A stretch of 36,529 nt of DNA from a candidate division KSB1 bacterium (lineage in GTDB: Bacteria > Zhuqueibacterota > JdFR-76 > DREG01): assembly GCA_022566355.1 (NCBI GenBank), contig JADFJB010000035.1, forward strand, positions 1-36,529, read 5' to 3'. Under the pieces are notes generated by a model. The model was not told the DNA's origin, did no database searches, and saw nothing but the letters and a program-made list of their open reading frames with translations. Shown piece by piece: positions 2,680 to 22,458 of this stretch (the stretch's first letter is position 1; each line of letters begins with the position of its first letter). The position numbers were made by a program, and so were the translations under genes.

Positions 2680-5600
2680 TTATCCATGCCCACCCTCGGT
2701 CACCAACTTTGTTCCTGGCGGCAATTCCTCTTTAGATTTGCCAGTTTCGGGAACGTACTCACCGGCTCTAACCGCTTTGGTGAAACGCGCCAGAAGGGTA
2801 TAGACTACCGGCACCAAAACCAGGGTCAGGAAGGTGGAGAAAAACAACCCACCCACAACCGCTAGACCAAGGGGACGACGGGATTCCGCGCCGGCACCCA
2901 GGCCAAGGGCAATCGGCATTACACCCAGAATGGTGGAGAATGAGGTCATGAGGATCGGGCGCAGGCGAATGGTTGCCGCTTCCACCACGGCTTCCATCAC
3001 TGCTTTCCCGCGCGCTCGCAACTGATTGGAAAATTCCACAATCAAAATCGAATTTTTGGTCACCAGGCCGATGAGCATGATCAACCCGATCTGCGAATAA
3101 ATATTCAGGCTTTGCCCGAAAATATACAGCGTCAGGATGGCGCCAAAGACTGCCAGCGGCACTGAAAGTAAAATCGTAAACGGATGGACAAAACTTTCGA
3201 ATTGAGCCGAAAGCACCAGGTAGATAAATACAACGGCGAACAGGAACATAAAAATGAGACTGGCGCCCGCCGACTGGTACTCCAATGACTGCCCGGCAAA
3301 CTCGCGTTTAATACCGCCCGGCAATTTCTCTTGTGCGATCCGGTCCAGATCGTCCAAAGCCTGCCCCAGGCTGATACCAGGAATGAGGCCGGCAGTGATC
3401 GTTGCCGAACGCATACGGTTGTAATGGTTTAACGCTTTCGGTGCAACGGTTTCTTTAACCTGAACAACATTTGCCAGTTGCACCAATCCTCCGCCACCAC
3501 GAATGTAGATTTCCCGGATGGCATTCGGTGTAGTACGGGCCGAAGGCTTCATCTGGATAATCACATCATATTGCTTGGTGCCGCGTTTAAAATTGGTAAC
3601 CACCCGACCGCCCAGAAAGGTCTCCAGTGTCGAACCAATATCGGTAACAGAGACTCCCAGGTCTGCGGCGCGTTCCCGATCCACATTGATATCCAGTTGG
3701 GGTTTGTTGAGACGGAGATCGCTATCCAAATTGATCAGGTAGCCTAATTGTGATGCTTCGGCTATCATGATTCCTACCGCTTGGTTGAGCTCATCATAGC
3801 TATCCGCCTGGAGGACATATTCCACCGGGTTTGAGTTGAATCTGCCGCCGATACTTGGAGGATTGATGACGAAAGCCATTACCCCGGGAATTGATATCAG
3901 TTGAGGAAAAAGCTCTTGAACGATTTGTTGTTGGGATTTCTTTCTTTCGCTGCGCGGTTTTAACGCCAGGAAAAGGAAGCCGTTGGTAACCTGGCCGGGG
4001 CCGCCAAATCCCAATCCAACAGCGGTAAACAAGGCACGCCGCTCCGGCAGCGGCAGTAAGATGGCTTCAACCTCACGCATATAGCGGTCGGTATATTCCA
4101 GCGTTGCGCCTTCCGGGGCGATTACAATACCAAAAGCGATGCCACGATCTTCCACCGGCACTAACTCGGTGGGTATGAATCTCAAAAGAACCACACTCAA
4201 AGCAATGGCCAGAATTCCGCCAACAATTGTCAATAACCGGTGGTGCAGGGCGCCCTGTAAAATACGGTTGTAAATTCGGTTCAGGGAATCGAAAAAATGA
4301 TCAAATGAACGTGAAAACCAATTGGTGCTGGTTCCATGCAGTGGTTTCAGAAACTTGGAGCACAGCATGGGTGTTAATGTTAATGCGACAAATCCGGAAA
4401 TCAGGATAGCAACCGCCAGGGTAATGCCAAACTCGTTGAATAAACGTCCGACCGATCCTGTCATGAATGCCAGGGGAACAAACACCGCGACCAGGGCTAT
4501 CGTCGTAGCAACAATTGCGAAGCCAATTTCTTTACTACCATCGAGGGCGGCCTGCCAGCGGTTTTTCCCCATTTCCATATGCCGATAGATATTTTCCAAC
4601 ATCACAATGGCATCGTCGACCACAATACCGATGGCCAACACGAGAGCTAGCAAGGTTAGAATGTTGATGGTGAATCCTGCAAAATAAGCAACGGCGAAAG
4701 CTCCGATAATCGAAATCGGGATCGCCAGGGTGGGTATCAATGTGGCCCGAAAACTCTTCAAGAAGGCCAAAACTACCAAAATCACCAGACACATAGCAAT
4801 GAAGAGTGTTTCCTTTACTTCCAAAATCGAATCATTAATGAAAGTCGAGGAGTCGTAAGCAACGTCTAATTTCATACCCGGGGGCAATAGTCCGCTTAGT
4901 TCAGGCAGCGATTTGCGGATTTCGGCGGCAACATCAACTGTGCTCGCTTTGGACTGTTTTACGATACCTAATCCAATTGCAGATTCTCCGTTATAGCGGG
5001 CGACTGTTCTTTCATCCTGTGCGCCAACCGTTACTTCAGCAATATCACGCAAGCGCACCAGGTCGGTTTCTTTTTGGGAAATAATAATCGCACCGAATTC
5101 CTCGGGCGTGGTTAGCTCTCCCCGGATTCGGACTGCAAATTCCCGTTGCAGGCCTTCTACACGGCCACCGGGTATTTCAGCATTTTCTCTACGGATAGCT
5201 AATTCGACATCCTGGGTTGTGAGTCCGTGCGCTGCCATCTGAAATGGATCGAGCCATACGCGCATGGCATAGCGGCGTTCACCGCCGATAATCACGGAAC
5301 CCACACCAGGCAAGCGTTGAATTCTTTCTTTCAAAATACGGTCACCAATGTCGGTTAATTCCAGGCCATTGTGCCGTTCACTAAACAGCGCCAACCAGAC
5401 AATCGGTTGGGCATTCACATCCACTTTAGAAACGATAGGATCGTCTACTTCGCGGGGAAGCGCACCGCGTATCCTGGATACTCGATCGCGAATATCATTG
5501 GTCGCTTCGTCCACATCCCGGTTTAGCTCGAATTCAATCGTGATAACCGAACCCTGTTCCTGGCTGGAGGAGGTTAATGTTTTAACACCTTCCAGGGTGG

Positions 5601-5814
5601 CGAATTGTTCTTCCAGCACGTTGGTGATTTCTGTCTCAACCACACTCGGGCTGGCGCCCCGGTAAAGGGTGACGACAGAAACAATCGGTGGATCGATATC
5701 CGGGTATTCGCGTACCGGTAGCCGGTTAAATGAAATGATGCCGAAAAGCAGAATCGTTAAACTCATGACGGTGGCAAATACCGGTCGGTGTATGGATATG
5801 CTGCTAAGTTTCAT
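2680..5814 (-). CDS. RND efflux pump inner-membrane permease (AcrB/MexB, HAE1 family)
   Basis: A 1044-residue proton-driven exporter of the AcrB family, full length. TM1 is near residues 10-30, followed by the large periplasmic porter domain. TM4 carries the proton-relay pair Asp400-Asp401 (GIVVDDAIVMLEN), and TM10 carries Lys920 in GLVTKNSILIVEF, equivalent to AcrB Lys940. A second periplasmic domain lies between TM7 and TM8. The trimer takes drugs or other amphiphiles from the periplasm or membrane and passes them to a TolC channel. Its partners are the lipid-anchored adaptor (5991-7067) and the TolC-like protein (7867-9402) on the same strand upstream. The start ATG at 5814 is 176 bases from the adaptor stop, and that gap is filled by repeat copy A. 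Substrate cannot be told. Confidence 0.96.
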   Translation of the reverse strand: MKLSSISIHRPVFATVMSLTILLFGIISFNRLPVREYPDIDPPIVSVVTLYRGASPSVVETEITNVLEEQFATLEGVKTLTSSSQEQGSVITIEFELNRDVDEATNDIRDRVSRIRGALPREVDDPIVSKVDVNAQPIVWLALFSERHNGLELTDIGDRILKERIQRLPGVGSVIIGGERRYAMRVWLDPFQMAAHGLTTQDVELAIRRENAEIPGGRVEGLQREFAVRIRGELTTPEEFGAIIISQKETDLVRLRDIAEVTVGAQDERTVARYNGESAIGLGIVKQSKASTVDVAAEIRKSLPELSGLLPPGMKLDVAYDSSTFINDSILEVKETLFIAMCLVILVVLAFLKSFRATLIPTLAIPISIIGAFAVAYFAGFTINILTLLALVLAIGIVVDDAIVMLENIYRHMEMGKNRWQAALDGSKEIGFAIVATTIALVAVFVPLAFMTGSVGRLFNEFGITLAVAILISGFVALTLTPMLCSKFLKPLHGTSTNWFSRSFDHFFDSLNRIYNRILQGALHHRLLTIVGGILAIALSVVLLRFIPTELVPVEDRGIAFGIVIAPEGATLEYTDRYMREVEAILLPLPERRALFTAVGLGFGGPGQVTNGFLFLALKPRSERKKSQQQIVQELFPQLISIPGVMAFVINPPSIGGRFNSNPVEYVLQADSYDELNQAVGIMIAEASQLGYLINLDSDLRLNKPQLDINVDRERAADLGVSVTDIGSTLETFLGGRVVTNFKRGTKQYDVIIQMKPSARTTPNAIREIYIRGGGGLVQLANVVQVKETVAPKALNHYNRMRSATITAGLIPGISLGQALDDLDRIAQEKLPGGIKREFAGQSLEYQSAGASLIFMFLFAVVFIYLVLSAQFESFVHPFTILLSVPLAVFGAILTLYIFGQSLNIYSQIGLIMLIGLVTKNSILIVEFSNQLRARGKAVMEAVVEAATIRLRPILMTSFSTILGVMPIALGLGAGAESRRPLGLAVVGGLFFSTFLTLVLVPVVYTLLARFTKAVRAGEYVPETGKSKEELPPGTKLVTEGGHG

Positions 5815-5846: not shown

Positions 5847-5975
5847 TTGAACACGGATGACACTGATAAGACGGATTAACACGGATTTTTTAAATTTGTT
5901 TCTTTCGTTTTAAGTTTTTTAATAATTTATGTTTTATCTGCGATTATCCGTGTTATCAGTGTCATCTGCGTTCAA
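5847..5975. repeat. Interspersed inverted-repeat element, copy A (full)
   Basis: Terminal arms start TTGAACACGGATGACACTGA and end as the near-complement TCAGTGTCATCTGCGTTCAA (two mismatches in the outer 23 bases). Each arm carries repeated ACGGAT units, and the core is AT-rich with TTTTTTAATAA. It fills the gap between the adaptor and pump genes. Copies B, D and E have the same layout. The element could fold into a long hairpin in the efflux mRNA. Confidence 0.85.
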
Positions 5976-5990
5976 TTCAACCAAAGTTTC

Positions 5991-7067
5991 TTACCTTTCA
6001 TTCGAACGAGTTGCACCTTGACTGGAAACAGGCATCACCTTTGCACCTTCAAAAAGTTTTTGATGGCCGGCTCGTACTACTTTCATTCCCGGCTCCAAAC
6101 CTTGTAGCACTTCCACCACCTCGGCCGATCTTGTTCCGAGTTTAATGGACACACGTGCAACTATGCTATCCGGCTGAACTACAAAGACAAAAGTTTCATT
6201 GCCGCTGGCAAATACCGATTCATTTGGAATCGTCAAGGCTTGGGATCGTTCGCTAAGAATTACTGAGACGTTGGCTGACATTCCAGCCCGGAATTTCCGG
6301 CCAGGATTCTCCACCCTGGCGATAATCCTGGCGCTTCTGGTTGCAGAATCCAATATAGGTTCGATCACGATAATTGTTCCTTTTAATTCGTAACCCGGAT
6401 ATGCAGTTGTTGAAACCGTAACAGCGGCCCCTTTTCTCAGAAGAGAAATGTATCGTTCGGGAGCGGAAAAATTCACCCGGATTGCATCAATATTGGCCAG
6501 ATCGGTGATTGCCTGACCAGATCGCAAAAACGCGCCAATACTTACACGCCGTGACCCGATGATACCGTCGAATGGAGCTATGACCTTGGTTTTTGCAAAG
6601 CGCGCATTTGCCAGGGCGAGATTCGCTTCGGCGACTTTCAAAGCTGCAGCCGCGTCGTCCAGGTCCTGGGGAGCGCCTGCTTTTAGTTCAACAATAGCAA
6701 ATATGCGGTCATAAAAAGCCTGTCTTTGAGCTCGCAATGCTTCGGCGCGGGCAACTTCTGCGGAAAGCTGAGAGTCGTCTAATTGTGCGATTAATTCTCC
6801 ACGCTTGATTTCACCACCTTCAACGAAAGGGAGACCCGTTACAGCAGCATCTATTTCGGCGACAACAGTAATCGATTCATTGGCTTTAATTGTGCCAACC
6901 GCTTCAAATTTATCAGCGACGTTTTGAACTGACACCTCGACAATTTCCACCGCCGTTGGCGGCATGGAAAAACCACCGCCTGCATTTTGTTTTGAGCAGC
7001 TGGAAATTAGTAAAAGAATAAGGATGTAAATTATTGAACTAAATATTTTTAAAGAGACTATTTTCAT
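5991..7067 (-). CDS. RND efflux periplasmic adaptor (membrane fusion protein), lipoprotein
   Basis: A 358-residue HlyD/AcrA-type adaptor that links the pump to the TolC channel in the periplasm. The chosen start ATG at 7067 gives a lipoprotein signal: Lys-containing n-region, hydrophobic stretch IIYILILLLISSC and lipid-attachment Cys24. The frame is open for 46 more codons upstream, but that part is translated from the interspersed repeat and is not coding. Next come the first half of the lipoyl-like domain (ITVVAEIDAAVTGLPFVEGG), a coiled-coil hairpin rich in Ala, Glu and Arg, the second lipoyl half (KTKVIAPFDGIIGSRRVS) and beta-barrel strands (PNESVFASGNETFVFV). It lies between the TolC gene and the pump gene, as expected for one tripartite system. 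Confidence 0.93.
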   Translation of the reverse strand: MKIVSLKIFSSIIYILILLLISSCSKQNAGGGFSMPPTAVEIVEVSVQNVADKFEAVGTIKANESITVVAEIDAAVTGLPFVEGGEIKRGELIAQLDDSQLSAEVARAEALRAQRQAFYDRIFAIVELKAGAPQDLDDAAAALKVAEANLALANARFAKTKVIAPFDGIIGSRRVSIGAFLRSGQAITDLANIDAIRVNFSAPERYISLLRKGAAVTVSTTAYPGYELKGTIIVIEPILDSATRSARIIARVENPGRKFRAGMSANVSVILSERSQALTIPNESVFASGNETFVFVVQPDSIVARVSIKLGTRSAEVVEVLQGLEPGMKVVRAGHQKLFEGAKVMPVSSQGATRSNER

Positions 7068-7110
7068 TGTAAAATTTTGCCTTTCATTTATAAATGAGAG
7101 ATCCTTCTTA

Positions 7111-7224
7111 AGAACACGGATGACGCGGATTAGACAGATTAACACAGATTCTTTTATTTTATGTTTTTTAATAAATTTTGTTTTATTTGTGAGTATCCGT
7201 GTCATCTGTGTTATCTGCGTTCAA
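7111..7224. repeat. Interspersed inverted-repeat element, copy B (full)
   Basis: Left arm GAACACGGATGACGCGGAT and right arm ending ATCTGTGTTATCTGCGTTCAA around an AT-rich core with TTTTTTAATAA. The right arm supplies the last base and stop codon of the GxxExxY gene (stop 7221-7223), and the element separates that gene from the adaptor start at 7067. Confidence 0.85.
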
Positions 7225-7529
7225 ACCCATAAGTAGAAATCCGTTTCATAGTTAATAAGTTGAGCTTCATGCTCTTCACGTAAGCTCTCTTTAGCTTTGG
7301 TCTCTACTATAACCATATCACTCATTATTAAATCTGCTTCATATTTGCCTACTATTTGATCATTATAACGAACTACGATTTGTTTTTGTTGAATTACTTT
7401 CAAGCCTATTTTTCGTAACTCAATTGCCATTGCATTTTCATAGACTTTTTCCAAGAAACCATATCCAAGTTCATTATTGACCTTATAAAAAGCATAAATA
7501 ATCTTTTCAGTGATTTCTCTATGTAACAT
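7221..7529 (-). CDS. GxxExxY family protein (PD-(D/E)XK-like fold), C-terminus altered by a repeat
   Basis: A 102-residue protein with the defining G-x-x-E-x-x-Y motif as GFLEKVY (residues 24-30), then KYEADLI (Asp66) and VETKAK (Glu76, Lys78). The D...E-x-K arrangement is that of PD-(D/E)XK nucleases, the superfamily to which these proteins have been assigned; cellular role and activity are unproven. Relatives are usually about 120-130 residues and continue after HEAQLINY with a hydrophobic strand. Here the frame changes to a short tail (ETDFYLWV) and stops at the edge of repeat B, so the 3' end looks truncated. Upstream of the start lies another arm of the same repeat (7549-7581). The gene breaks up the efflux locus and is unrelated to efflux. 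Confidence 0.8.
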   Translation of the reverse strand: MLHREITEKIIYAFYKVNNELGYGFLEKVYENAMAIELRKIGLKVIQQKQIVVRYNDQIVGKYEADLIMSDMVIVETKAKESLREEHEAQLINYETDFYLWV

Positions 7530-7548
7530 TTTGCTCTTTTGATTCTGT

Positions 7549-7581
7549 AATCATTTGCATCATCAGTGTCATCTACGTTCG
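7549..7581. repeat. Isolated right arm of the interspersed repeat, copy C (partial)
   Basis: The stretch ends CATCAGTGTCATCTACGTTCG, matching the right arm of copies A and B with a few substitutions and no matching left arm. It lies about 20 bases upstream of the GxxExxY start. On the minus strand it reads as an Asp-rich open stretch (SNVDDTDDAND), but in a different frame from the gene. Confidence 0.7.
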
Positions 7582-7615
7582 ACATTTTAGAAGTTGTTAG
7601 TTGTTTTGTATGAAA

Positions 7616-7735
7616 GAACACGGATGACGGGGAATTAGACTGATTAACACAGATTTTATTTATTTGTTTTAGGCTTTTTAACGAAATTGTGTTTTATCTG
7701 TGAATATCCGTTTCATCGGTGTCATCCGCGTTCAA
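7616..7735. repeat. Interspersed inverted-repeat element, copy D (full)
   Basis: Left arm GAACACGGATGACGGGGAA and right arm ending CGGTGTCATCCGCGTTCAA, with a core again holding a T-run and GTTTTATCTGTG. It lies between the partial arm C and the shortened copy E in the gap upstream of the GxxExxY gene. Confidence 0.85.
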
Positions 7736-7775
7736 TTGCCGCATGCAGCACGCATATAACGCGAATTTGGTATAA

Positions 7776-7862
7776 AAACACGGATTTTTTTGTTTTATTT
7801 TTTTTAATAAATTCATGTTTTATCTGTGTTCATCCGCATTATCCGTGTCATCCGCGTTCAAA
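7776..7862. repeat. Interspersed inverted-repeat element, copy E (left arm shortened)
   Basis: Only the inner part of the left arm (AAACACGGATTTTT) remains, while the right arm is complete and ends TGTCATCCGCGTTCAA. It abuts the stop codon of the TolC-like gene at 7867. Confidence 0.8.
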
Positions 7863-7866
7863 CAAA

Positions 7867-9402
7867 TCATTCACGGATAGCGCCGGGGTACTTACCTGAT
7901 GTTAATTCTTTCAAGGTGGCTGCTGCTTTCGCAGTTCGAACCAAAGCCTCTGAATAACGTTGTTGAGCAAGAGCAAAATCAGCGCCCAGCCGTACCAACT
8001 CAAATGCCGTAGTTCTACCGTTACGAAACTCGATTAACCCGATACGAACCTGTTCCTGGGCAGCTTCGACACCTTCTATAGCCGCATCAAGGCGGCGTCG
8101 GCCGTGGAACAATTCCCTGTGGCTTGTTCTTACTTGCTCTTCCAAGGCACGTGCCTGTTCAATATGTCGTTGCTCAGCTAAAATTACCTCTGCATGTAAC
8201 CGGTCTTTTTCACCCAATCCACTACGAAAACCGATAGGTATGCTAACCTCAACGCCTATACTCCAGGTTTTAAAATCACGTTTTCTAACCTGGCTTATGG
8301 CTTCACCAAGACCTCCGCTGCGGGTCAATCTTAAGGTGTCATTCCCAAAGATAACATCCTGTGCAGTTCCAGCCAGGCCATTTCCTCCTAACGAACCGAC
8401 CAGATCCACTTTTGGCAACGCTTCCCAACCAGCTGCTTTTGCACGAGTCCGGCTCACTTCCACATCTTTCTGTGTCGCTTTCAGATCCGAATTATTTTGT
8501 AATGCGTGTTGCACCAATATATCCACCTGTACTAATGGAAATTCACTCGGCGGATCATCTACAGTGATGAAGCGTGTCATTCCATTTTCCGGTCTTACTC
8601 CAATCAAAGATGCGAGTTGATCGGAAAGTTGATCCAACTGTTCTTCACGTTCGAGTAAAAGTAATTTTTGTTCTGCAAGAAATGTTCTGGCACTTGCAAC
8701 CTGGTTTGGTCCGATTAATCCGGCATCTGCTTGCAATTTTGTTTCCCGGAGAAAAATTTCACCCTGGTCAAGTGTAAGTTTCCGTACGGCATAATCGCGT
8801 TCGGCAGCATAGAGATTCCAATAAGACCGCTCAACTTCGGCGTTTATTGAAAGTACTTCCTGATCCCGGCGAGACTCGGCAGCCTGTAATTCTTGTTCCG
8901 CCAGGGAAAGCTGATTTCGGGCGGATATGTGAAATCCTCCCAACAATGGTTGCCGAAACCTTACACTACCAAACGTGGTATATTGGGGATTCAAAAAAGC
9001 AAAAGAAGAATTGCTCTTTAAGCGGATCAAATTGAGAGAAGCCTCTAATTCTGTACCGATTGGCAAATCCCACCGCAATCCGGTTTGTGTGCTCATTTGT
9101 TTGGTGAACAGGATTGGCGCCCCGGAAAAAAATGAAGCTGTCGGCTGCTCCTGATCCTCGAAATTCAGGTTAAAGAACAATTCCGGGTCAAAAAATCCCT
9201 TTTCTTTGCGAACCGTACCACGTGCTGCAAGATATTCGGCGTTCGCTTTTTGAACGGAAGTGGCATAAGCCAAAGCGTGGCGAGTAGCCTCATTAAGGGG
9301 TAGGGGAGAGCCTTCTAATTGTTTAAGAATGGTTTGAAGCGCACTATCAGGATTCGCCGGCTGGGTTTGTCCATTTACTAACTGAGTTGTGCCGAAGAGC
9401 AC
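7867..9402 (-). CDS. TolC-family outer-membrane efflux channel
   Basis: A protein of 511 residues or more with the two-fold repeated helical structure of outer-membrane efflux proteins: alpha-helical repeats rich in Ala, Glu and Gln (EVERSYWNLYAAERDYAVRK; later EEQVRTSHRELFHGRRRLDAA) joined by beta segments (FGSVRFRQPLLGGF; WSIGVEVSIPIGF). It forms the trimeric exit duct for the adaptor and pump encoded downstream. The first standard start is GTG at 9402, but this leaves a stub of a signal peptide. The frame is open for 18 more codons upstream, giving a better signal sequence (PYRHHLVFIRQLLIIVLFG), and an AAGGA ribosome-binding site stands just before ATC/ATT codons at 9451-9456. The true start may therefore be non-canonical. 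It heads the efflux locus. Confidence 0.93.
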   Translation of the reverse strand: MLFGTTQLVNGQTQPANPDSALQTILKQLEGSPLPLNEATRHALAYATSVQKANAEYLAARGTVRKEKGFFDPELFFNLNFEDQEQPTASFFSGAPILFTKQMSTQTGLRWDLPIGTELEASLNLIRLKSNSSFAFLNPQYTTFGSVRFRQPLLGGFHISARNQLSLAEQELQAAESRRDQEVLSINAEVERSYWNLYAAERDYAVRKLTLDQGEIFLRETKLQADAGLIGPNQVASARTFLAEQKLLLLEREEQLDQLSDQLASLIGVRPENGMTRFITVDDPPSEFPLVQVDILVQHALQNNSDLKATQKDVEVSRTRAKAAGWEALPKVDLVGSLGGNGLAGTAQDVIFGNDTLRLTRSGGLGEAISQVRKRDFKTWSIGVEVSIPIGFRSGLGEKDRLHAEVILAEQRHIEQARALEEQVRTSHRELFHGRRRLDAAIEGVEAAQEQVRIGLIEFRNGRTTAFELVRLGADFALAQQRYSEALVRTAKAAATLKELTSGKYPGAIRE

Positions 9403-15522: not shown

Positions 15523-15663
15523 TTATAAGATTTTAATTGGCAAGAGAAATTTTAACTCCCGTTCTAGTTCAGTATCCTCGGCTTTGTAAACAACACCCAT
15601 TCCACCTTCGCCGAGTTTGGAGAGGATTTTGTCCCGCCTGGGCGGGATGGTTTTGCCGATCAC
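15523..15663 (-). pseudogene. Ser/Thr kinase 5'-end remnant 1
   Basis: From GTG at 15663, 46 codons read VIGKTI, then an insert, then [20 protein letters not shown] and ELKFLLP before a TAA. This is the start of a kinase like the intact one (15660-18014), including the glycine-rich ATP loop, but nothing of the catalytic lobe follows. SHYK is replaced by PPRRDK through a GC-rich palindrome (15632-15647). The GTG overlaps the TGA of the intact gene (GTGA), as if two kinases were once coupled in tandem. 65 bases (15566-15630) match 17923-17987 with two mismatches. Confidence 0.75.
15632..15647. repeat. Short GC-rich palindrome
   Basis: TCCCGCCTGGGCGGGA has 7-base arms and stands out against AT-rich flanks. 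It replaces four conserved residues in kinase remnant 1, so it looks inserted. Similar short palindromes stand near 18322 and 18481. Confidence 0.65.
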
Positions 15664-18014
15664 TTATCCAACCCTACTTTTTTCACCAGTTCAATAAATC
15701 TCGGATCGGAACGAAGATTATCCCAAAATGGATCAACCTTAATGTAAGTCAGCCACACCGATCTTTGCTCAAGAGATAGTTTCAACAATTCCAGCGCTTT
15801 TTCTTTTTCTCCTAATCCTGCATAAATCATTGCCACATGGTAAGGAGAAACAACACGTTTTGATGAGAGTTTATCCATTTCAACCAGCGTTTTCTCGGCT
15901 TCCTCAATATTTCCTGAAATCCCATAAGTATAACCGAGCCCTGCTAATACATCTGGACTATCACTGAGTCGTAGCGCTTCTTTCATGTACTCAATGCCTT
16001 TAGCGGTCTGGTTTTTTAATACATAAGCTTTACCGATCCAATAATGGGTCAAATAAAAATCTTGATCCATACTTAGTGTTTTTTGTAGATGCTCCAGGGC
16101 GAGATCATACCGTCTGGCCGCAATGTAGGCATAGCCAAAAGTCGCGTTGATAATAAGTGAATGCGGGTCGACAGTCAACGCCTGCTTGAGCTCGGCAAAC
16201 CCTTCCTCAAAACGGCCACGGTAATACAATCCTAGGCCATACCAGTGATGGGCGGTTGCATAATTGGGATTCAATTCAATAGCGCGCCTAAAACTTTTAT
16301 CAGAGAGTTCCCATTCCCACTCAATTTGATATGCTGAGGCTAACGAGGTATGCGCTTCCGCCAGTTGCTCATCTATCTGAAGGGCTTTTAATGCAGCTGA
16401 TTTTGCTTTTGGGATGGCTTCTATGGCGGGCAAAACAGTGTAATATGGGAATAAACCATAACAGTCGGCCAAACCCGCATAAGCGGCGGCATAGTTTGGG
16501 TCTCTATCTATCGCTTGTTGAAAATACCCCAAAGCTGTTTTCAGTGCCTCGCCTGTCCGCTGATTCCAATAAAAACGGCCTTTTAAGTAGAGTTGATACG
16601 CTTCCCTATCTTCGGTATGCCGTTTGACCAATCTGCTCTTGTCATCGCTGCTCAGTTTCAACCGTAAGCTGGTTGAAATTTGCTCGGAAATGGCATCCTG
16701 AACTGCAAAAATATCATCCATCGTGCGATTATATTGCTCACCCCAAATCTGCGCTCCGTCCGAGACATCAACCAATTCGGCGTTGAGACGTAGAGCATTC
16801 CCTCGTTGAACTATCGCTCCCGTCAATACAGCTCGCACGTTTAGCTCCTCTCCCACCTGCTGTGCCGTCATATCTTTTCCTTTGAAACGAAAAACGGTGT
16901 TGCGAGCCATTACCCGTAGCTCCGGCAGTTGGGAAAGTTTAGTGATGAGGGTTTCGGTGATGCCGTCGCTCAGATATTCGATGTCGGGATCGTTGTTTGA
17001 GTTGACGAATGGAAGCACTGCGATGGAATCGATTGGCTGGCTGCGGGTGAGGAAATAGATGAGCCCGGCCGCGGTTACCAACACAGCAAGGATTGCAAGG
17101 CCATAGTAGGCAAAAGATTTATTAAACCGGTTTTGTTGTGGAGCTTTTTGCACGGGTTTAGATTGCGTCATACCCGTCTTCGAAAGTATTTCTTTTGTCT
17201 CTGATTCCTTCTTTAATTCGCTTAAGTCTGCAATTAGCTCGGCAGCCTGTTGATAGCGACCTGAAACATCCTTTTTGAGGCATTTGTTGATGATCCGTTC
17301 AAGTTCCATAGGAATACCGGTGCGCAAACCTGTGACTGGTTCAGGTTCCTCATTCAGAATGGAATAGGTGATGGCTTGTTCATAGTCACCTTTGAAAGGG
17401 TATTGACCTGTCAACATTTCATAGATCAAAACTCCTAATGAAAATATATCCGTCCGATTGTCAACCTCTTCGCCCCTGGTCTGTTCAGGTGACATATATG
17501 AGGCTGTTCCCAGGGTTGTTCCGGCTTTCGTGAGCTTTGTCTGACTACCTAACTTTGCCAACCCGAAGTCCATGATCTTGACTTCACCCCGATCGGTCAG
17601 CATTATATTGGCTGACTTGATGTCACGATGAACAACGCCGCCTTCGTGTGCTACCTGCAAACCTCTTGCTATTTCGGTGACAAGATTAAGGGCTTCATCA
17701 ATTGGCAGGAGGCCAGCTTCAATTTTATCCTTTAATTCCTTACCCTTGATGTATTCCATAACGATGAACATCTCATCATCGACTTCTTCAATACTATGAA
17801 TTGTAGCGATGCTGGAATGGTTCAGGCGAGCAGCAGCTTGCGCTTCAACTCTGAAACGTTTTCTTTCCTCACCATGCTTTGCTATATGTTGTGGCAGGAA
17901 TTTGATTGCTACTTCGCGTTTAAGTTCGGTGTCCTCGGCTTTGTAAACAACACCCATTCCACCTTCGCCGAGTTTGGAGAGGATTTTATAATGGGATATT
18001 GTTTGACCAATCAT
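15660..18014 (-). CDS. Transmembrane Ser/Thr protein kinase (PknB-like) with FlgO/TolB-like and TPR domains
   Basis: A 784-residue protein. Kinase domain 9-265: ATP loop GEGGMGVVY (16-24), Lys38, catalytic HRDIKSANIM (129-138) and DFG (149-151), all intact. A basic, Gln-rich linker precedes a TM helix near 302-323. Outside the membrane comes a domain starting SIAVLPFVNSNNDPD and LSDGITETLITKLSQLPEL (about 329-450), as in CadC- or FlgO-like signalling proteins, then multiple TPR units to the end (e.g. AYAGLADCYG, EAHTSLASAYQ, ATAHHWYGLGLY). It is a sensor kinase with a protein-binding exterior; ligand and targets are unknown. Start ATG at 18014. Remnants of related kinases lie on both sides. 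Such kinase-TPR genes form large families in many environmental lineages. Confidence 0.92.
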   Translation of the reverse strand: MIGQTISHYKILSKLGEGGMGVVYKAEDTELKREVAIKFLPQHIAKHGEERKRFRVEAQAAARLNHSSIATIHSIEEVDDEMFIVMEYIKGKELKDKIEAGLLPIDEALNLVTEIARGLQVAHEGGVVHRDIKSANIMLTDRGEVKIMDFGLAKLGSQTKLTKAGTTLGTASYMSPEQTRGEEVDNRTDIFSLGVLIYEMLTGQYPFKGDYEQAITYSILNEEPEPVTGLRTGIPMELERIINKCLKKDVSGRYQQAAELIADLSELKKESETKEILSKTGMTQSKPVQKAPQQNRFNKSFAYYGLAILAVLVTAAGLIYFLTRSQPIDSIAVLPFVNSNNDPDIEYLSDGITETLITKLSQLPELRVMARNTVFRFKGKDMTAQQVGEELNVRAVLTGAIVQRGNALRLNAELVDVSDGAQIWGEQYNRTMDDIFAVQDAISEQISTSLRLKLSSDDKSRLVKRHTEDREAYQLYLKGRFYWNQRTGEALKTALGYFQQAIDRDPNYAAAYAGLADCYGLFPYYTVLPAIEAIPKAKSAALKALQIDEQLAEAHTSLASAYQIEWEWELSDKSFRRAIELNPNYATAHHWYGLGLYYRGRFEEGFAELKQALTVDPHSLIINATFGYAYIAARRYDLALEHLQKTLSMDQDFYLTHYWIGKAYVLKNQTAKGIEYMKEALRLSDSPDVLAGLGYTYGISGNIEEAEKTLVEMDKLSSKRVVSPYHVAMIYAGLGEKEKALELLKLSLEQRSVWLTYIKVDPFWDNLRSDPRFIELVKKVGLDK

Positions 18015-18316: not shown

Positions 18317-18454
18317 TTATCCCCCCAACGGGGGCAGGAACTTCAAGGCGACGAATCGGTCGAGTTTGGTGTCTTCGGCTTTATAGACGACACCCATCCC
18401 GCCTTCGCCTAACTTCTGTAGGATTTTGTAATGGAGAATTTTTTGTCCAATCAT
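18317..18454 (-). pseudogene. Ser/Thr kinase 5'-end remnant 2
   Basis: ATG at 18454 opens a 45-codon frame: [20 protein letters not shown], then [20 protein letters not shown], then PPLGG and TAA. It contains the ATP loop and the beta-3 lysine and stops immediately after, nearly where remnant 1 stops. The junction carries CCCCC-AAC-GGGGG (18322-18334). It is more diverged in nucleotide sequence from the intact gene than remnant 1, so it derives from a different paralogue. Confidence 0.75.
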
Positions 18455-21705: not shown

Positions 21706-22458
21706 CTTTCACTCCTGGTTAGTACTTTTGTCAATTTCAGAATTTTAACAATTTTTGACTATTAATTCTTCCAAACACTATTTTAATTAAAACAATAGTT
21801 ATACTAAAAGTATCACGATTGATTATTATTTCTAAAATAAATTGTTTTTTAATAAATGAAAAATTAATACAAAAATCAAATCAGGTTCTCTGACTTAATT
21901 AATATTATTTTTGACTTTTGTATTTGGTAATTTAAATTTGAGTTCATTTTAAAAAGGTGGGATACCGATTCCATCGCTCTCATAAGTATTTGTTTTTATG
22001 TATAAATTTTTTTTAGAAAAGCGATTGAATCGGTTTTTAGAGTAAACTCAAATTTTAAATTATAAATATTTTAATTTTGGAATTATTCTCTTCTCACACC
22101 TAGTTAAACGATTCCTAATTATCATCGCAATATTCAATGACAACCAATGACATTATATAATCAGAATTTGACAATTCATTACTATTTTATTCTGAAACAC
22201 ACGTTATTTTGGAACCATTTCACTCGTTCCTCCAGAGACAGCACTGTGTATAACTAAAATTTTATTTTGCCAATGTTAAGGATTTTAATAATTGTTTTTT
22301 CATAAGATTTTGCCAAATAATCCCAATCGTACATAAAAAATCTATCTTTGATAAACTTTAAAAAAACCTTGCTACTTCTTATTTCCATGTTTACATTCAG
22401 TTAATTAGTGAATAATCAAAAACTAAATTGACAACATTCCAAATAAAGGAGAATTGTC
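21706..22458. other. Long AT-rich divergent intergenic region
   Basis: About 750 bases between the divergent MsrP-like and aminotransferase genes, without a supported reading frame. The only clear structure is the long inverted repeat 21929-22061. It must hold promoters for both genes, but AT richness makes individual boxes unreliable. Confidence 0.5.
21929..22061. repeat. Long imperfect inverted repeat in the divergent intergenic region
   Basis: The left arm 21929-21978 (AATTTAAATTTGAGTT at its outer end, CCGATTCCATCGCT at its inner end) pairs with the right arm 22020-22061 (AGCGATTGAATCGG inner, AACTCAAATTTTAAATT outer), with a few mismatches and one bulge, around a 41-base loop. The RNA or single-stranded DNA could form a hairpin of about 40 pairs. 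It may be a MITE-like remnant or a structured leader or ncRNA. Confidence 0.6.

Follow-up and report, generated by a model that had tools for sequence, protein, structure and literature searches.

We analyzed a 36,529-nucleotide (nt) stretch of DNA, hereafter the window, from a candidate division KSB1 bacterium (GenBank assembly GCA_022566355.1, contig JADFJB010000035.1; contig C35 of genome G000 in our numbering). The window carries a minus-strand efflux operon with the gene order TolC-like outer membrane factor, periplasmic adaptor and RND pump, and copies of one family of inverted-repeat hairpins lie between these genes. Among the hairpins stands a gene of the GxxExxY family, whose members are predicted PD-(D/E)XK nucleases. 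The relationship between GxxExxY genes and such hairpins is the subject of this work. The locus contains the following features.

2680 to 5814, minus strand: RND efflux pump gene (PF00873, 1073 bits; scores for NCBIfam RND permease models fall short of the model cut-offs)
5847 to 5976, no strand: hairpin copy A, an element without a gene between adaptor and pump (arms at 5847-5886 and 5936-5975)
5991 to 7067, minus strand: RND periplasmic adaptor gene (TIGR01730, 248.5 bits; assumed start ATG at 7067, frame open from 7205)
7110 to 7225, no strand: hairpin copy B, directly adjoining the GxxExxY gene at its 3' end
7221 to 7529, minus strand: GxxExxY gene (PD-(D/E)XK nuclease family) whose domain is missing its C-terminal part (TIGR04256, PF13366 and alignment)
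about 7544 to 7582, no strand: arm C, a single arm 5' of the GxxExxY gene
7614 to 7736, no strand: hairpin copy D
7746 to 7862, no strand: hairpin copy E, with one degenerate arm
7867 to 9402, minus strand: TolC-like outer membrane factor gene (PF02321, 137 bits)

Copy A occupies the adaptor-pump gap (176 nt), and B, C, D and E lie in the TolC-adaptor gap (799 nt, 7068-7866). A full copy consists of an arm, an AT-rich loop and a second arm. Copies measure 116-130 nt with arms of about 40 nt, each arm being built from about four units of the ACGGAT, ACAGAT or ACTGAT type spaced 9-10 nt apart. The arms of copy A are 40 nt each and 83% complementary. An earlier annotation made from the letters of the window (the original prediction) had described A, B and D as full copies, E as a shortened copy and C as a lone arm of a single repeat family, and all of these were recovered. 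Its statement that the family fills all intergenic gaps held for the two gaps inside the operon, with the amendment that the TolC-adaptor gap also holds the GxxExxY gene between B and C, which it had not listed. The long mRNA hairpins that it had anticipated were borne out by folding prediction against shuffled sequences. As single-stranded RNA in the operon sense, copy A had a predicted energy of -43.4 kcal/mol (z-score -9.8), and the z-scores of B, D and E were -4.3, -5.2 and -2.8. None of 200 shuffles folded as well as A, B or D; for E, 2/200 did so in the operon sense and 3/200 in the opposite sense. Compensatory changes between copies, proposed there as evidence, were no more frequent than in shuffles. 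The four copies had 2 two-sided pairs against a shuffled mean of 1.6, and 248 of 500 shuffles scored as high, so that covariation among the window copies was rejected as evidence of pairing. An alignment of 83 R1 hairpin matches from 38 sources, which is model-fitted and includes both strands, was kept out of pair counting.

Within the source assembly (4.6 Mb, 213 contigs, 98.5% complete), the hairpin family is essentially confined to the efflux locus. The arm pattern, allowing up to 3 mismatches, had 6 matches in the whole assembly, all at this locus, and the reversed control pattern had none. A covariance model of copies A, B, D and E gave 11 matches, 8 of which were these copies on both strands; the remaining three were weak (C7:11579, with E 0.0025 and 0.005 on its two strands; C87, E 0.14). 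This census, which the original prediction had proposed, shows a local and not a dispersed family, and the clustering looks like the local spread that it had suggested as one possibility. No further hairpin copies were found within the window, where other matches were AT-rich partial ones to pieces of loop or arm, and Rfam at the gathering threshold returned nothing from the window except one tRNA. The window also contains a separate AT-rich inverted repeat (21921-22068; 35-nt arms, 77% complementary, 78 nt apart) and 74-nt direct repeats (15557-15630, 17914-17987 and 18354-18427; 72-93% identical), which may be the common start of related, putatively kinase-like genes.

The GxxExxY gene of the window scored 101 bits against TIGR04256 (cut-off 35), where it spans only positions 1-91 of the 116 profile positions, and 103.6 bits against PF13366 (cut-off 22); relatives in the alignment extend further. 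Residues D66, E76 and K78 of the nuclease motif, in the numbering of the Stygiobacter electus relative L077, are invariant in 29 aligned sequences including the window copy. The source genome has 8 family matches at 6 loci, two of these split by frame, and 52 of 59 related genomes contain matches. At one source-genome locus (L005), TGTCTGAACCATGATT...AATCATGGTTCAGACA repeats at about 1330-1475 and 1853-2000 enclose, by eye, the remains of a broken GxxExxY gene and represent a further arm type. We predicted the structure of L077 rather than of the window copy (predicted local distance difference test, 91; predicted template modelling score, 0.84). The model matched mostly PD-(D/E)XK nucleases, including SSO0001 (Z 9.7) and restriction-endonuclease-like proteins, and Foldseek returned LHK and lambda exonucleases. 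By fold and residues, the GxxExxY protein is therefore a predicted PD-(D/E)XK nuclease, and this modelled fold would be compatible with DNA cutting at hairpins or cruciforms, without proving it. A sequence search for a solved GxxExxY structure gave none, its two matches being to oxidases (E 0.76 and 0.80). To our knowledge, GxxExxY proteins have no established function. Among the matches listed in searches of open-access PMC papers, we found no report linking GxxExxY to flanking repeats, and the arm letters matched primer-like text only. A passage of PMC8934634 names GxxExxY only as a neighbouring domain.

We found that GxxExxY genes are frequently bracketed by inverted arms. The flank test aligned the 400 nt upstream of a gene locally with the reverse complement of the 400 nt downstream, with a threshold score of at least 15 and same-sized intervals elsewhere in the same loci as controls. 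It was applied to a named set from several phyla (80 loci fetched, 73 tested) and a relatives' set (53 loci, 52 tested). Matched inverted arms occurred at 81/125 testable GxxExxY loci versus 8/1,891 control intervals, or at 80/124 without the one locus present in both sets (L065 = L079); a few further pairs are close copies. By set, the figures were 47/73 against 6/1623 controls for the named loci and 34/52 against 2/268 for the relatives, and at a score of 18 the named loci still gave 36/73 against 0/1623. A first run had yielded 46/72, compared with 2/1128 control intervals and 2/1440 dinucleotide shuffles. As a positive control, Y1 transposase genes, which have REP-like palindromes, were bracketed in 16/27 cases (control intervals 5/136). 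ParE toxin genes, the negative control, were bracketed in 0/30 (control intervals 4/157). Genes for S23/IVP four-helix proteins (loci L154-L183 and L354-L393, all from relatives) behaved like GxxExxY genes, with 40/67 bracketed against 9/354 controls. Bracketing arms are also present in isolates, namely S. electus (L077), Spirosoma sordidisoli (L152), Winogradskyella ouciana (L083) and Gelidibacter mesophilus (L114). Among loci preselected for pairing, an arm's best-pairing arm was its own partner in 24/42 and 28/32 cases for GxxExxY, 36/39 for S23 and 13/15 for Y1. Moreover, 16/40 named loci had at least 3 arm copies, compared with 5/160 cross-locus controls.

GxxExxY arms are imperfect tandem arrays of units of about 9 nt. 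Their self-similarity peaked at lag 9 and then lag 10, with excess identities of 0.139 and 0.070 for the named loci and 0.120 and 0.018 for the relatives, and 9 was the best lag in 23/40 and 15/28 usable arms, respectively. S23 arms peaked at lags 7 and 14 (0.282 and 0.248), with 7 the best lag in 24/36 arms, and Y1 arms had no shared period (largest excess 0.011). PMC4990558 describes a Coxiella 23S rRNA intervening sequence with an S23 open reading frame (ORF) inside it and tandem heptamers upstream of the ORF. We read these heptamers as a putative instance of the 7-nt unit rule of S23 arms.

Arm sequence and protein sequence vary together. Across 80 loci, protein identity correlated with arm similarity (Mantel r 0.504; highest of 2000 permutations 0.19), and the correlation persisted after duplicates and close copies were removed (77 loci, r 0.527; highest permutation 0.24). 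Among all loci with arms, units ending in GAT occurred at 38/46 where the protein shares 50% or more identity with that of the window, versus 6/31 below that value (39/48 versus 7/32 before duplicate removal), a contrast that is partly one of phyla because most of the similar proteins come from other phyla. Within the phylum, arm type follows GxxExxY subtype. At least 3 GAT units on both sides were found for 4/4 proteins that share at least 55% identity with that of the window (L065, L287, L417 and L418) versus 3/50 below (Fisher p 0.0001, window left out). Without L417 and L418, which come from a genome picked for its hairpins (G019), the count was 2/2 (p 0.0075). In that genome, proteins of 66% and 70% identity have four GAT units on both sides, and two of about 32% do not. 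Different subtypes in one genome can therefore have different arm sequences, which suggests a recognition code readable from sequence. The association also bears on an alternative in which a different transposase, such as a Y1/RAYT enzyme, mobilizes the hairpins in trans as ordinary miniature elements and GxxExxY is a passenger. Y1 matches do occur in 45 of the 59 genomes, three of them in the source genome, and some repeat-rich genomes lack a fetched GxxExxY gene of the window type. However, Y1 genes have their own, unperiodic palindromes, the three Y1 (PF01797) matches of the source genome lie on contigs C72, C12 and C135 and none on the window contig, and within this phylum the arm type goes with the GxxExxY subtype. 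We therefore judge this explanation improbable.

Comparison of orthologous operons (L394-L400) revealed that the adaptor-pump junction varies between genomes. By eye, the junctions of G028, G058, G024 and G035 contain no arms; G028, whose pump is 82% identical, has a gap of 33 nt, G058 one of about 5 nt, provided that its frame has been assigned correctly, and G024 and G035 gaps of roughly 100 nt. The same junction in G036 and G053 carries a complete GxxExxY element with AACCGCGAATGAACGCGAAT-type arms, and in G057 arms of this type surround only an N-terminal gene remnant, which is, as read from the sequence, a miniature derivative formed by internal deletion. The element or its deletion derivative occupies L398 3459-4123, L399 2986-3651 and L395 3630-3932. 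The arms of hairpin A are unrelated to these AACCGCGAATGAACGCGAAT-type arms, so at least two different elements have reached this junction. In the TolC-adaptor gap, G028 has a 4HBT_2 thioesterase-like gene (PF13279; L394 4188-4595, minus strand) and no arms by eye. Separately, G057 has an R1-type hairpin next to a different RND adaptor gene (C77 6196-6291, L030; adaptor match 6314-7222).

Because orthologous junctions are armless or hold unrelated elements, the hairpins do not belong to the conserved makeup of the operon. This argues against the idea, put forward in the original prediction, that they were selected for balancing the three efflux components against one another or for terminating transcription. 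That both internal gaps are filled and the predicted folds are strong would suit such tuning, but similar hairpins occur at unrelated places in other genomes, and their position is explained by insertion into a tolerated gap, so that tuning is not needed for the pattern. We consider it very improbable.

Hairpins also occur repeatedly in other genomes. In G020, copies 77-93% identical stand at several places, and their flanks differ beyond some common outer bases. By eye, hairpins lie on both sides or in tandem at L225, L226, L286, L288, L296 and L299. At L222 (501-695 and beyond) and L225, gene-less hairpins follow one another in arrays with a few A/T-rich bases between them, either alone or around a GxxExxY gene. 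Some copies were inherited vertically, as the sister species G048 and G053 share a hairpin locus (L260/L264) that is 97% identical. These observations bear on the view that the arms are operators for GxxExxY autoregulation and that neither gene nor arms move. The arms do bracket the gene and vary with its subtype, but an operator is not needed downstream of a gene, gene-less copies and tandem arrays stand at other sites, and elements are present or absent at one junction, where a deletion derivative was also seen. We regard stationary operators as very improbable.

GxxExxY genes are oriented in the sense of both flanking ORFs at 51/66 and 29/42 loci, and antisense to both at 2/66 and 0/42. The corresponding both-sense and both-antisense counts were 42 and 2 of 54 for S23, 13 and 2 of 22 for Y1, and 9 and 1 of 26 for ParE. 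Ordinary operon genes lean the same way, and for a mobile element the bias suggests a need for read-through expression or RNA-linked insertion. This brings in an explanation at the RNA level, by analogy with 23S rRNA intervening sequences: the arms would fold in the transcript, RNase III would cut the stem and remove or isolate the loop with its ORF, and spread might proceed via RNA or be incidental. Insertions in transcribed gaps would be tolerated because RNase III removes or isolates the loop. The strong stems predicted in the operon sense, the sense bias of GxxExxY and S23 genes and the like architecture of S23 genes with their 7-nt units all suit this explanation, as does the Coxiella intervening sequence with S23 ORF and heptamers, which is excised by RNase III according to PMC4990558. 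However, the sense bias may just reflect the survival of expressed copies, Y1 and ParE genes lean likewise (sense to antisense 13 to 2 and 9 to 1), and gene-less hairpins, being nearly symmetric, are uninformative in orientation. We consider an RNA-level origin possible yet rather unlikely; it and an element based on the nuclease can both hold.

Taken together, the window repeats are probably gene-less copies of a REPtron-like selfish element whose protein is the PD-(D/E)XK nuclease GxxExxY. In REPtrons and TIRtrons, according to PMC3733652, a small protein gene is bracketed by inverted repeats, protein and repeat form specific pairs, and gene-less hairpins are often clustered. We use the term REPtron-like because a protein combined with its own inverted repeats is this known principle. 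The gene-bearing form would consist of an inverted arm of tandem units of about 9 nt (ending in GAT in the window), the GxxExxY gene and a matching arm. We infer that such an element entered the efflux operon, that its gene then lost its 3' end, and that local multiplication brought gene-less hairpins into both internal gaps. Loss of the interior of a gene-bearing element can produce such hairpins, as seen once, in G057. The GxxExxY protein, as a predicted nuclease, most likely recognizes arm units of its own subtype and would cut DNA in or close to the hairpin or cruciform, and host repair would then complete the insertion, copying the element nearby. The hairpins would thus spread much as is thought for RAYT acting on REPs, with another enzyme. 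Insertions would persist in non-coding gaps, in the sense of transcription, and the hairpin form would keep them tolerable there, possibly with the help of transcript processing by RNase III.

Several observations weigh against this nuclease-borne element. The window's own gene is truncated, the C-terminal part of its domain being lost where the frame meets hairpin B, and 44/125 tested GxxExxY loci lack arms at the threshold. The L077 model resembles an archaeal Holliday junction resolvase (1gef; Z 7.1, root-mean-square deviation 3.3 over 85 residues), a weak likeness, since a modelled Z under 8 may reflect just a common arrangement. Phylum is a partial confounder of the overall Mantel test. 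The cross-phylum correlation of arm and protein as first computed (r 0.434, p 0.0002) included a duplicate locus and two loci added after the arms had been seen, and it is not relied on here. With titles limited to other phyla and without L065, L417 and L418, it fell to r 0.112 (p 0.13); under the same strict filter with L417 and L418 included, it was r 0.377 (p 0.0008). Because strict filtering weakens the correlation, the link across phyla rests on few loci. The repeat-rich genomes G001, G002, G020 and G058 have no matched GxxExxY protein at least 50% identical to the window's among those fetched (a partial gene set), and R1 hairpin matches occurred in 31/52 genomes with a GxxExxY match and in 2/7 without one. 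In G002, 10 of 11 fetched gene-less copies (L214-L221, L223 and L224) share flanks on both sides, and the R1 copies of this genome were rejected as independent insertions, being carried in a larger repeat. No clean empty site with matching flanks was found in the pairs compared, and no target duplication was found, a dedicated analysis not having been made. The pair G048/G053 was set aside as an empty site (its flanks are 94-96% identical, but the whole intergenic region differs), and a second presence/absence pair (L020) was likewise not clean. Finally, relatives of the L077 protein appeared in 8 of 72,556 plasmid records and 0 of 50,697 phage records, an occurrence so rare that transfer between hosts is left unexplained.

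The window locus is best seen as one decayed instance, and the class behind it seems new; the family apparently represents undescribed selfish DNA. The association of gene and arms gives GxxExxY a concrete candidate role and could account for many orphan intergenic hairpins. A broader proposal, which we advance tentatively as somewhat less than an even prospect, is that GxxExxY and S23 elements are two branches of one unrecognized selfish class, with a protein of about 120 amino acids inside a hairpin whose family-specific units (9 and 7 nt) are read by the element's own protein, and with scattered gene-less hairpins and 23S rRNA intervening sequences as offspring. Under this proposal, a PD-(D/E)XK nuclease would be the sole protein that a GxxExxY mobile element needs. 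The association of gene and arms also offers a frame for the intervening sequences, the origin of which is called unclear in PMC4990558; the same paper cites an older idea that the ORF of the intervening sequence served mobility.

Among known systems, the GxxExxY/PDDEXK_3 family itself (TIGR04256, PF13366) includes the window gene above both cut-offs, with an incomplete domain. Miniature inverted-repeat transposable elements and insertion sequences with terminal inverted repeats likewise have gene-bearing and gene-less forms that share their ends, as do the G036/G053 element and the G057 derivative, but here there is no known transposase and the ends are arms of tandem units. The 23S rRNA intervening sequences with an S23/IVP four-helix ORF are similar in placing the ORF in a hairpin loop and in having short tandem units; they differ in protein family (S23 instead of GxxExxY), in unit length (7 nt instead of 9 nt) and in lying in rRNA, which the elements described here do not. 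The repetitive extragenic palindromic (REP) and REPIN-RAYT systems have a like layout, and Y1 loci pass the flank test about as often (16/27). Their enzyme is a Y1 HUH transposase, of which the window contig has none, whereas here it is a predicted PD-(D/E)XK nuclease. Moreover, REP palindromes measure 20-40 bp according to PMC3733652, in contrast to the window copies of 116-130 nt with their arms of about 40 nt. What sets these elements apart from REPtrons is their enzyme, the arms of tandem units and the rule of one unit length per protein family.

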